From Scatophagus argus (Eukaryota; Chordata; Actinopteri; Scatophagidae), in assembly GCF_020382885.2 (NCBI RefSeq), contig NC_058504.1, positions 12,721,019 through 12,785,018 of the forward strand: DNA of 64,000 bases, given 5' to 3'. Below are positions 5,594-61,883 of the stretch, piece by piece. The position numbers were made by a program, and so were the translations under genes. The notes beneath the pieces are model-generated. The model did no database searches. It was not told the origin of the DNA and was given only the letters and a program-made list of their open reading frames with translations. The stretch's first letter is position 1. Every line of letters begins with the position of its first letter.

Positions 5594-5614
5594 AACAGCA
5601 CCATGAACAGTTAC
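5594..5614 (+). promoter_or_regulatory. Weak RE1 (REST)-like site, V1
   Basis: AACAGCACC, two bases, GAACAG, then a poor right end: 14 of 21 matches to the RE1 consensus. Its position about 260 bp beyond the V1 conserved element matches the better sites in other intervals. It may be a decayed copy. Confidence 0.35.
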
Positions 5615-6120
5615 TAACGCCAGCGATAACTCGGCCCAGCCACAGAGTCAGACTTAATATTGCATCACAGGAGCCCGAAAAGCTCAAATCACAAATTGCT
5701 GATTAATCGATGGATGTATACTTAATACTGCAAAGTGTTTTTCAAAGTAGACTGAAAAAGCAGGAGACTATAAAATAAAAAAGAGACGCGTAGCACACAT
5801 CGATATAAGAGACACACACAAACTGTAGCCGAGAGTCGAATCAGCAGGGAGTCCTTCTTCACAAAACTATTAGAATATTATTATAATGCCAAGCAAACAG
5901 TATTGATGCAGTACAGGCTGTGAACGTAAACTAATTAATGAACAAGCAAATTAATAAAACTGCGAGGGCTTACACACGCCCACACACACACATAAAACAC
6001 TGTTTCACAATATTCAAAAAGAGAATGTGTTGTTAATATGACAGCAGACAGCCCACAACTTTAGCCCACACACACATTCACACACTGTGTCACCAAAAAA
6101 GCTTGATTTAAAAACTTTAC

Positions 6121-8469
6121 CTCTTCAGATGTACGTCTCCTGTCAGGGAGCACCAGTGTGTTGGCATGGCTGCCAGGGACTATAGTAGATCCTATACTCA
6201 TTCTGGGTCCAACTAACATGTAGCGTTTGTCTCCAGATCTGTACTGGATGCTGTGACACAGTGTCCCGTCATAATTAGTCTCTTGTAGATATTTAGAAGT
6301 ATAGTCTGTGGATTTGGAGCACTGCATTGCAATCAGCACGATGATACTGATGAGGAAAAGGACTGAAACTGAGCCCAAAGTTATGATGAGATAAAAAGTC
6401 ACATCATTCCCCTCATCATCTTTGGCTGCACTTTTGACATCAGAGGCTGCAAAAGCCTCTTTGGGCTCCACCACTTTGACAATCACAGTAGCTGTTGCTG
6501 AGAGGGAAACGTTCCCATTGTCTTTGACCAGTATGAGCAGTTTGTGCTCAGCCTCGTCTGTCTCTGTGAATGAGCGAAGTGTTCTGATCTGTCCTGTATA
6601 GCGGTCCAAAGCAAAGAGACTGTGGTCAGTGACTTCCTGCAGTGAAAAGAGTAACCAGCCGTTATATCCTATATCAGCGTCATAGGCTCTGACTTTAGTC
6701 ACCAAGTGTCCTGCGTTCACATTGCGGGGAATCTCCTCCACACCTTCAGCAGAGCCGTTGGAGCTGACTGGATACAGGATGACTGGAGCGTTGTCGTTCT
6801 GATCCAGAATGAACACGTTCACTGTGACGTTGCTGCTCAGTGACGGAGTTCCAGAGTCTGTGGCCACGACTTGGAACTGGAACGTTTTCAGAGTCTCAAA
6901 GTCAAAACTTTTTAGCGCCATAATATCCCCACTTTCAGAGTTAATATTTAAAAACACGCCCGCACTATTGCCACTGCTGTCCCTTGGAATGTGATAGGAC
7001 ACACGCGCATTATCACCATCATCAAGGTCAGATGCCTTCACTGAAAACACTGGCAGGACTAAGTCATTATTTTCAGTAATATAGAATGTATATGGACTCA
7101 TTGAAAACTGTGGTCCGTTATCATTCACATCTGAAACAGCCACACTTATTGTCTTTTCAGATGAGAGTGACGGCTCGCCACTGTCCTTTGCAACAATCGT
7201 AAGTTCATAAAAAGACATTTCTTCTCTGTCCAATGGTGATTTGGTTACTATGGCATACATATTATCTTGCAAGGATGGAGATACAGTAAATGGAACATCC
7301 TCACGTATAAAGCAGGAAACCTTTCCATTGAGGCCTGAATCCAAATCACTGACGCTGATCAAAGCTACTGTTGTTCCAATTCTAGTATCTTCAGGGACTG
7401 ATTTGGAAAATGATGTAACTTCAACCGCTGGAGGATTGTCGTTAAGGTCGATTACTTTAATTATCACTGTTTTGTCTGTGGAAAAGGTGACACTGCCCTG
7501 ATCTGAAGCTTGTACATCGATTTCATAGCTTCTACTTTCCTCAAAATCAATTACACCGGTCACTTTAATTTCACCCGTACTTGGGTCTATGCTAAATAGC
7601 TTCTGTAAATGAGAATCCACTTCTTTACCAAATGAGTAAACGATTTCACTGTTTGCACCCTCATCCAAATCAGTCGCATTAACCTGAATAACCAACGTGC
7701 CAGGAGCTGAGTTTTCATTTAAAGTAGCAGAATATACGTCTTTTGTAAAAACCGGTGAGTTGTCGTTCACATCGAGCACCTCAATTACGATTTCTATTGT
7801 TCCAGACCTCGCCGGCCTCCCGCCGTCAATAGCGGTAAGCATCAGCTTGTGCCGCCTCATAGCCTCTCTGTCTAATTGCTTCTGTAAAACCAGAAAGGGC
7901 ATCTTACGGTCCTCGCCCCTCTCCTTAACCTCCAAACGAAAGTGGTCATTGTGGCTGAGTCTGTACTGCTGAACCGTGAACTGACCGCCATCCGGGTCGC
8001 GTGCAGGTTGGAGCTGAAACCTCGCTCCCGGTAACGTCGATTCAAATATCTCCAGTCGTTTCTCCTTTTCGGCAAACACGGGGGAGTGGTCGTTCACATC
8101 CAGCACCTCTATAGCCACATAATGGATTTCCAGAGGATTTTCCAGCACGGTTTTAAGGTTGATTATACACGCGTTGCTCCGTTCACAGATTTCCTCCCTG
8201 TCCACTTTCCTGCCGACATACAGGATGCCGTCGTCGTTACTCAAACGAAACAGCGGTTCCGTTGAACTGCCGACAATGCGATACTCTCTATCTTTGAGCG
8301 TGGCCTTGTCAATTCCAAGGTCTTTCGCGATATTTCCAACAACACTCCCTTCTTTCACCTCTTCGGAGATGGAGTATCTGATCTGAGCAGAGGCTTCGCT
8401 CCAAAACGTTACAAAAACCACCACGGACGCGAGGCATCTCCATCGCTTTATCCACACCTGGCTCTCCAT
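6121..8469 (-). CDS. V2: clustered protocadherin variable exon
   Basis: 783 codons. Signal peptide about 1-28 (a hydrophobic run up to EASA, then QIRYSISEE), EC1-EC6 to about 669, membrane segment about 690-716, tail to 783. The start is the ATG at 8469; the frame stays open three codons upstream to a TTG only. EC5 ends in an unusual [13 protein letters not shown] stretch, where most V1-V11 exons have a charged loop with TSF or ASF. The donor is GAG|GTAAAG, shared only with V6, and the intron next to it is nearly the same as that of V6. From about [10 protein letters not shown] to the end the sequence is that of the shared block. Two conserved-element copies and a strong RE1 lie upstream. Confidence 0.94.
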
Positions 8470-8644
8470 CCTACACAAAAAATAATAAATCTGGGATCTA
8501 TAGTAGTATGGTCAAGAAATAATAATCCGTCTTATTTCCACGCATCACCGAGACAGCGCCGGGAACTGCACAGGGCTACTTTTGTGTCCAAGCCCTTTAC
8601 ACGTAACGTCAAAAGAAGAACTAATGGTGATGACGAAGAGTTGC

Positions 8645-8658
8645 AGAGACACCATGTG
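8645..8658 (-). promoter_or_regulatory. Second CSE-like copy of V2
   Basis: AGAGACACCATGTG, 22 bp closer to the V2 ATG than the main copy. It keeps GACACCATG but has GTG for GCG. V2 is the only exon seen with two copies. Confidence 0.5.
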
Positions 8659-8666
8659 CCATTATA

Positions 8667-8680
8667 CCGACACCATGCGA
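8667..8680 (-). promoter_or_regulatory. CSE of V2
   Basis: CCGACACCATGCGA, 198 bp upstream of the V2 ATG and 36 bp from a TGACG site. It matches the V4-V8 elements except for CCG in place of CTG. Confidence 0.75.
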
Positions 8681-60972: not shown

Positions 60973-61176
60973 TATACCACAGCTCAGAGAAAACACGAGA
61001 AAAACTGTTACTGGGACAAAAGCCCTTCTACGTCCAACCCGTTGTGAATCGCACGTTTCCAAAATCCACAACACGAATCCATCAGCTGCCGTGCTCGATT
61101 CAAACGGCTGCCTTGCGACAAAGAAAAAGCTTTTTCATGGGAGGGACAAAGTCTTCTGTCGTTTGCCAGTGTTACA

Positions 61177-61190
61177 GTGACACCGAGAGG
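61177..61190 (-). promoter_or_regulatory. CSE of V17
   Basis: GTGACACCGAGAGG, 205 bp upstream of the ATG. It is the only copy with CCGAG at the centre. Confidence 0.78.
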
Positions 61191-61353
61191 ACATCGAAGG
61201 AAAACAAAAGACTATATATGTAATCACGGGTAAACATGTCCTAATGACAGTTAAGAACTTCCTGTCGTAAAATTAGTAACGTTGTCACTGCAACAGTACA
61301 TTATACCCAGTAAAATATAACCGGTTATAGAGATTATAGAATGTAGGAAGTTA

Positions 61354-61473
61354 CGGAGCCCGGAAGGGACATGGAGGGGAAATATATGTTCTGTTGCGAG
61401 ACATCTTTATTCTTTTTTAAATAATAATAAAAAAACTTCATTTTTTCCCCTCCATGTCCATTCCCGGGGTCCG
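61354..61473. repeat. MITE-like inverted repeat
   Basis: Two arms of about 30 bp, 61354-61382 and about 61444-61473, are reverse complements apart from one gap and two mismatches (core GGACATGGAGGGGAAA in the left arm, its complement in the right). About 60 bp of AT-rich sequence separates them. The size and layout suit a small non-autonomous DNA transposon. No clear target-site duplication is visible, so a simple palindrome remains possible. Confidence 0.55.
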
Positions 61474-61862
61474 GCGCAAGGTTTTCATCCATTGGAGTGT
61501 TTAATTTACTATATAGTTGTTACAACAATAGAGGTTACTTCCATTCTTTGACATTATTATTATGTATAAATAGACAATGTGTTGCAGCAATCGCGGAAAG
61601 TAGTCACAGTCAGCTCTTTTTCAGTGTGTTTTTCATTCAAATATAGCTCAGTATTGTCGCAGCAATTGTCTGTCAAACTGTTTACAGATCTCAGCATAAA
61701 CACAACCAGCTTCATACTTTCCAAGCAGTTCTTGATTAGAATTTCATCGACTGCTTAGAGCTTCGACTGTCAGGAACAATCTGCCTAAATGTTCCCAAAC
61801 AGAGGTGTGAATAATTGATTTGTAATCACTTTCTGTTGTTTATAACAGAAAAGCCAAAGCAG

Positions 61863-61883
61863 TTCAGCACCACGAACAGCGGC
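61863..61883 (+). promoter_or_regulatory. RE1 (REST)-like site, V17
   Basis: TTCAGCACCACGAACAGCGGC: 19 of 21 matches, 686 bp beyond the V17 conserved element. One of the two changes (GAACAG for GGACAG) hits a core position. Confidence 0.72.

Follow-up and report, generated by a model that had tools for sequence, protein, structure and literature searches.

An array of predicted REST/NRSF (RE1) sites, about one per variable exon, in a clustered protocadherin locus of Scatophagus argus

The window, a 64,000-nucleotide stretch of the Scatophagus argus genome (C12:12721019-12785018), is part of a clustered protocadherin locus in which most intervals between variable exons carry a plus-strand RE1-like site. 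Each good site is probably an RE1/NRSE that precedes the promoter of a single variable exon, predicted from its sequence to bind REST/NRSF and to silence the nearby promoter outside neurons. The sites exceed chance expectation, are retained amid diverged flanks, and recur in a similar layout of about one per exon in other subclusters. Clustered protocadherins supply neuronal identity codes. How progenitors and non-neural tissues keep them silent is, according to the excerpt of PMC8096226, largely unknown.

The window contains 18 long open frames on the minus strand (2737..63982), the variable exons V1-V18, which leave 17 intervals. Each is a single open frame of about 800 amino acids, V18 extends beyond the window end, and the adjoining 10 kb raises the number of frames to 20. 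A Pfam scan of three of the 18 exons gave cadherin repeats, a cadherin-like first domain, and a cytoplasmic start, and the best matches of one of the 18 among solved structures (PDB) were protocadherin-10 and clustered protocadherins. The exons are tandem, single-exon, and of one orientation, with cadherin repeats and a promoter element each, which is the organization of a clustered protocadherin locus. Relatives of one exon lie along C12 at 12.415-12.835 Mb, with at least three more on C14 and isolated ones at other places, among the 57 of 409 candidates that were scored. In fugu, the teleost Pcdh2-type locus has alpha and gamma parts and subclusters (excerpt of PMC1852091); by analogy, the layout here fits a locus of this type, and from that layout we infer that the window lies in the alpha part.

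A canonical RE1 is made up of the half sites TTCAGCACC and then GGACAGCGCC, separated by a 2-bp spacer. Scores are matches over 19 positions, the two spacer bases being ignored, and 11 of the 17 intervals hold a site of at least 15/19. Five sites, all on the plus strand like the rest, score 17/19: those of V2 (8945..8965), V6 (23602..23622), V7 (27807..27827), V10 (37327..37347), and V17 (61863..61883), the last lying 30 bp off the open frame of the upstream exon. V12 (43778..43798) and V13 (48417..48437) have sites of 16/19, while those of V3 (12897..12917), V8 (31162..31182), V11 (40673..40693), and V14 (51652..51672) reach 15/19. At 14/19 stand the site of V5 (20090..20110) and the RE1-like sites of V15 (54809..54829) and V16 (57970..57990), with a decayed right half in V5 and V15. 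The RE1-like site of V1 (5594..5614) is weak, at 13/19. The array continues past 61883, where the next two exons, completed in the adjoining 10 kb, have plus-strand sites of 17/19 and 16/19.

Rescoring reproduced the claim of the initial annotation that 15 of the 17 intervals have a plus-strand match and that V4 and V9 lack one. The V4 interval (15924..16950) gives at best 11/19 for either the canonical or the expanded class, and the V9 interval, the shortest at 421 bp (34068..34488), gives 9/19 and 12/19, respectively; expanded-spacer sites in place of canonical ones are thereby ruled out in both. Since V4 and V9 have no site and those of V1, V5, V15, and V16 are weak, one site per exon is not obligatory. 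Sites inside the exons, as in human, were also ruled out: the 20 open frames of the window subcluster do not exceed 13/19, a level frequent in shuffles. When the 21 positions are scored with AC as the spacer, the 19/21 matches claimed earlier at 8945, 27807, and 61863 are recovered, but three sites (23602, 37327, and 48417), not four, stand at 18/21. The A at position 20 ascribed to most sites is present in 11 of 15.

At thresholds of at least 13, 14, 15, 16, and 17 of 19, the plus strand has 15, 14, 11, 7, and 5 of the 17 intervals with a site. On the minus strand of the same 17 intervals, none reaches 13/19 and none exceeds 11, in keeping with the plus-strand orientation first described. Over the same five thresholds, 500 dinucleotide shuffles gave means of 0.784, 0.112, 0.010, 0, and 0 intervals (maxima 5, 2, 1, 0, and 0), and 1000 letter-permuted motifs gave means of 0.597, 0.067, 0.004, 0.002, and 0. 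Chance matches are rejected as the source of the array, as 14 of 17 intervals score at least 14/19 versus 0.112 in shuffles; this is the enrichment over shuffled intervals that the initial annotation had proposed as a check. Picking the best match per interval cannot yield the array either, because the best match of a shuffled interval reaches 14/19 in only 0.1 of 17. The V1 site at 5594 is by score alone within chance. The alignment of its flanks with the sequence around the V3 site (z 9.1), however, marks it as a probable decayed relative.

The same excess is observed against the whole genome. Within one mismatch of the 17-position pattern TTCAGCACCNNGGACAGCG, there are 472 places in 570.7 Mb (48 contigs), a rate of 0.83 per Mb; the reversed pattern has a single place in the whole genome. 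The window has seven such matches in 64 kb versus 0.053 expected, 132 times the genome rate. Across 294 kb of the locus there are 31 versus 0.24 expected, with about 29 kb of near-identical sequence included in the count.

The promoters are marked by a common element, CGC(A/T)TGGTGTCAGTGT, which was discovered by comparing upstream regions, independently of the RE1 motif and unlike it. We take it to be the protocadherin conserved sequence element. V1-V19 each have a copy with 0-4 mismatches of 15, located 40-251 bp past the 5' end of the open frame (in V6, for example, at 23360..23375 on the minus strand), and the best match of V20 has six mismatches. Among 190 shuffled stretches, two or fewer mismatches never occurred, three occurred in 0.5%, and four in 6%, a level that makes the V14 element, with four, uncertain.

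The RE1 lies on the far side of the promoter element at 148-1753 bp, with a median of 295 (17 sites, V1-V19). The usual distance of 160-700 bp given earlier applies to 12 of 15 sites. That the RE1 keeps a constant distance from the promoter or from the upstream exon is rejected, as both distances vary. Within the gap between promoter and next exon, RE1 positions are not distinguishable from a uniform distribution (KS p 0.34). Thus a site is present in most intervals, but its position is not set.

This loose placement, together with the two of 17 intervals lacking a site and the four with weak ones, favors a variant of the preferred explanation that has close to an even chance of being correct. 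The sites would act jointly on the whole subcluster and be individually redundant, with some decaying. In the fugu study of Tan et al. 2010, genes without an NRSE are reportedly covered by the sites of their neighbours, which also counts for regional action. Against it, the presence of a site in most intervals is repeated from one subcluster to another, beyond what a purely regional need would call for, though the copying of exons together with their intervals could also have this result.

Retention of the motif was assessed in 17 sites, 15 of the window and two of the adjoining 10 kb, with 80 bp of flank on each side, giving 136 pairs. In 131 pairs, the flanks score no higher than shuffled flanks (z below 3). 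Identity in those 131 pairs is 0.76 in the motif versus 0.27 in ungapped flanks, part of the 76% being built in, as the sites are the best consensus matches per interval and this selection inflates their mutual identity. Allowing gaps raises flank identity to 0.72, near that of the motif, as happens with unrelated DNA, but the alignment scores are not above shuffles. Outside the 21 bases, the information profile is near background. Also rejected is a larger duplicated unit present in every interval, most flank pairs scoring at the shuffled level.

Changes fall mainly at positions 1, 2, 7, and 18-21, with 0-2 at other positions (16 sites, 5594 left out). Positions 4, 5, 8, 9, 12, and 16 are invariant in these 16 sites, so that the core of a canonical RE1 is retained; presumably these are REST's key positions. 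The position-wise changes of the window array show rank correlations of 0.47 and 0.43 (p 0.04 and 0.07) with those of two other large arrays, which correlate at 0.71 with each other; in one of these arrays, that of subcluster A described below, four of 16 rows are duplicates. The flanks of 131 of 136 pairs have diverged while the 21 bases are still recognizable, which points to selection on the REST site.

Two alternatives bear on this pattern. Ancestral RE1s could have been copied with exon and promoter, most of them now being unselected relics. The flanks are clearly related in V13/V14, V01/V03, and V06/V08 (V02/V11 and V08/V18 are marginal), several copies in the 12.50-12.57 Mb subcluster also have common flanks by eye, and some sites show graded decay. 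Passive copying is nevertheless quite improbable, as neutral sites would have diverged like their flanks, whereas 131 of the 136 flank pairs are at the shuffled level and the motif stays recognizable, with changes at few positions. The proposal of a single local family, duplicated together with the exons, is not borne out as stated: clear flank kinship is confined to those three pairs, and sites of other arrays, too, can have A at position 20. Very improbable indeed is the second alternative, that what looks like an RE1 belongs to a different repeated element and is no REST motif. Most sites have no common sequence around them, the places listed for the exact 17-position pattern (84) are spread over contigs C1 to C24, and expanded sites show REST's own spacer class. 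No support for such an element was found, the promoter element being a different, separately found motif.

Beyond the window, 200 kb (12.40-12.60 Mb), 20 kb (12.69-12.71 Mb), and the 10 kb past the window were scanned. An exon was counted when its upstream interval has a site of at least 15/19, canonical or with a 7-9 bp spacer. The window subcluster has such sites at 13 of 19 exons, all plus; the V20 interval, truncated where the adjoining 10 kb stop and left out of this count, has a minus-strand 17/19 site about 1.5 kb upstream. The 12.69-12.71 Mb subcluster has them at five of five exons, and subcluster A (12.504-12.570 Mb) at 11 of 14, all plus in both. Subcluster B (12.454-12.501 Mb) also has them at 11 of 14 exons, all minus, and an extra minus site at 12457427 (15/19), within the end of the next open frame, would make it 12 of 14. 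Subcluster C (12.415-12.446 Mb) has them at four of nine exons, with expanded spacers only, three minus and one plus. The plus site of C, which scores 19/19, is separated from its downstream exon by 1.2 kb within a long interval; no canonical site of at least 15/19 was found in C.

The counts for A leave out the sites at 12575006, 12580971, 12589571, and 12598014 and a 602-aa frame at 12595405, because they lie in a stretch, about 29 kb long, with 99.5% identity to about 12539219-12568283. The four sites stay in the 16-row change spectrum, and the stretch stays in the 294-kb count. Double sites are observed at 65084 and 65209 (numbering continued past the window), at 12534323 and 12534929, and at 12693538 and 12693598. 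In 380 letter-shuffled 1-kb stretches, 15/19 was never reached by either class.

Expanded RE1 sites keep the half sites of the canonical class but have a spacer of at least 7 bp, which REST tolerates (excerpt of PMC8096226). Six sites of 17-19/19 outside the window belong to this class, four of them with an 8-bp and two with a 7-bp spacer. Two of the eleven sites of B are expanded and occur where a canonical site of at least 15/19 is absent. A scan of spacers of 0-13 bp gave single weaker hits (15-16/19) at 1, 5, 6, 10, and 12 bp, where the 5-bp hit overlaps the 19/19 expanded site and the 10-bp hit begins at a canonical site; permuted half sites gave chance hits of up to about one per spacer. 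According to the excerpt of PMC9903721, only spacers of 8 or 9 bp gave repression, which was weaker than canonical. The two 7-bp sites fall outside that range and may therefore be weak or inactive.

Site orientation or spacer class goes with the exon subcluster. In a quick tree built on the N-terminal 400 residues of 62 exons, the window, 12.69-12.71 Mb, and B exons form one branch each (support 98, 99, and 96), C forms one weakly supported branch (69), and A is split over two. A and B group together (support 96, midpoint root) despite their opposite orientation (11 plus versus 12 minus). The initial annotation had treated the single orientation as a functional clue. The opposite array in B removes that clue, and because orientation differs between subclusters, a single orientation within one more likely reflects ancestry than a functional requirement.

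The pattern of orientation and spacer suggests that the arrays were gained or reset within subclusters. More tentatively, and at somewhat less than even probability, per-exon REST control may have arisen more than once in this one locus, as antisense canonical sites in three subclusters, sense sites in one, and expanded sites in one. Selection would then keep restoring about one site per promoter, and spacer class would grade silencing per subcluster. The literature searched, in which Tan et al. 2010 is represented by a review only, contained no report of orientation and spacer class going with exon subcluster.

For the preferred reading, the mechanism would be as follows. REST/NRSF, a repressor, would bind the 21-bp RE1/NRSE in non-neuronal cells and progenitors, recruit corepressors, and prevent the nearby promoter from firing. 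It may also exclude CTCF, an effect reported at the alpha-cluster enhancer of mammals. Once REST drops in neurons, the promoters would open to stochastic choice. REST occupancy, silencing, and its timing are what we infer for these sites. The sites could instead serve isoform choice within neurons by repressing unchosen exons, a role that is unlikely for REST, which is low in neurons. Tang et al. 2021 proposed this role for human sites (excerpt of PMC8096226), but the reporter results told in PMC3601302, as excerpted, favor silencing in non-neuronal cells. In Xenopus tadpoles, removing NRSEs from protocadherin constructs turned a neural-specific reporter ubiquitous (Tan 2010, told in the same excerpt). 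REST-dependent promoter repression by the core 16-mer of RE1 has been published in zebrafish (excerpt of PMC3531662). Silencing at sites of the window is predicted along these lines, and the original identification of REST/NRSF-type RE1s by sequence, about one per exon in a protocadherin cluster, agrees with a silencing role published for fugu and human clusters.

Neighbouring arrays that differ in orientation or spacer, with some exons lacking a site, form a natural experiment on whether REST acts per exon or per domain. The same locus lets one test whether orientation or the weaker expanded class alters the outcome.

REST sites throughout protocadherin clusters are already established, and the window is a rather complete further case. 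The clusters of fugu, mouse, and human are described as having several canonical and noncanonical sites, which lie in promoters in fugu, whereas those of mammals are within coding sequence (excerpt of PMC3601302). The fugu clusters (Tan et al. 2010, via PMC3601302) are alike in being teleost, with several promoter-side RE1 sites and REST repression; the present locus differs in having nearly one site per exon, with orientation and spacer class by subcluster, a comparison that rests on the excerpted review. The NRSE of the HS5-1 enhancer (Kehayova et al. 2011, told in PMC3601302) belongs to the same gene family and is noncanonical, like the sites of subcluster C, but it is one distal enhancer site, as that excerpt describes it, and here the array is per exon. 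The human PCDH alpha and gamma clusters (Tang et al. 2021, excerpt of PMC8096226) have about one site per variable exon in canonical and expanded classes, as here, with two NRSEs in most gamma-a exons. The conserved human sites lie within the variable exons in that account, whereas those of Scatophagus argus lie between them.

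On contig NC_058504.1, the protocadherin subcluster at 12454000-12501000 (L018-L023) carries an array of predicted REST sites (RE1) in the sense orientation relative to its exons, the reverse of what is observed in the window. This array is made up of 12 sites, one of which lies within the end of an open frame. The subcluster at 12415000-12447000 (L014-L017) is composed of nine exons, for which no canonical RE1 (2-bp spacer) scoring at least 15/19 was found. RE1-type sites with an expanded spacer (7-8 bp) are present, and all four match at 17-19 of the 19 scored positions: 12421832 (18/19), 12439444 (17/19), 12442948 (18/19), and 12446860 (19/19).

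The stretch at ~12571000-12600000 (L030-L032) is 99.5% identical, with 48 gaps, to ~12539219-12568283 over at least 29 kb; each end of the match coincides with an end of a compared stretch. The longest frame in the ~12571000-12600000 copy is 602 aa, versus frames of >800 aa in the other. This copy is perhaps a second haplotype left uncollapsed in the assembly or, alternatively, perhaps a duplicate that arose very recently and whose exons are broken.

The only minus-orientation RE1 of at least 15/19 in the window's own subcluster (17/19) is located at 72236, counted on from the window, in the adjoining stretch L033. It lies 8.2 kb beyond the window's end and ~1.5 kb upstream of V20, the subcluster's first exon.

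Among the variable exons of the window (V1-V18) and L033, protein identity to V8 varies widely, from 91-96% for V3-V7 to 68-73% for V12-V20. This unevenness possibly reflects regional gene conversion of the kind that PMC1852091 describes for protocadherin clusters in fugu.
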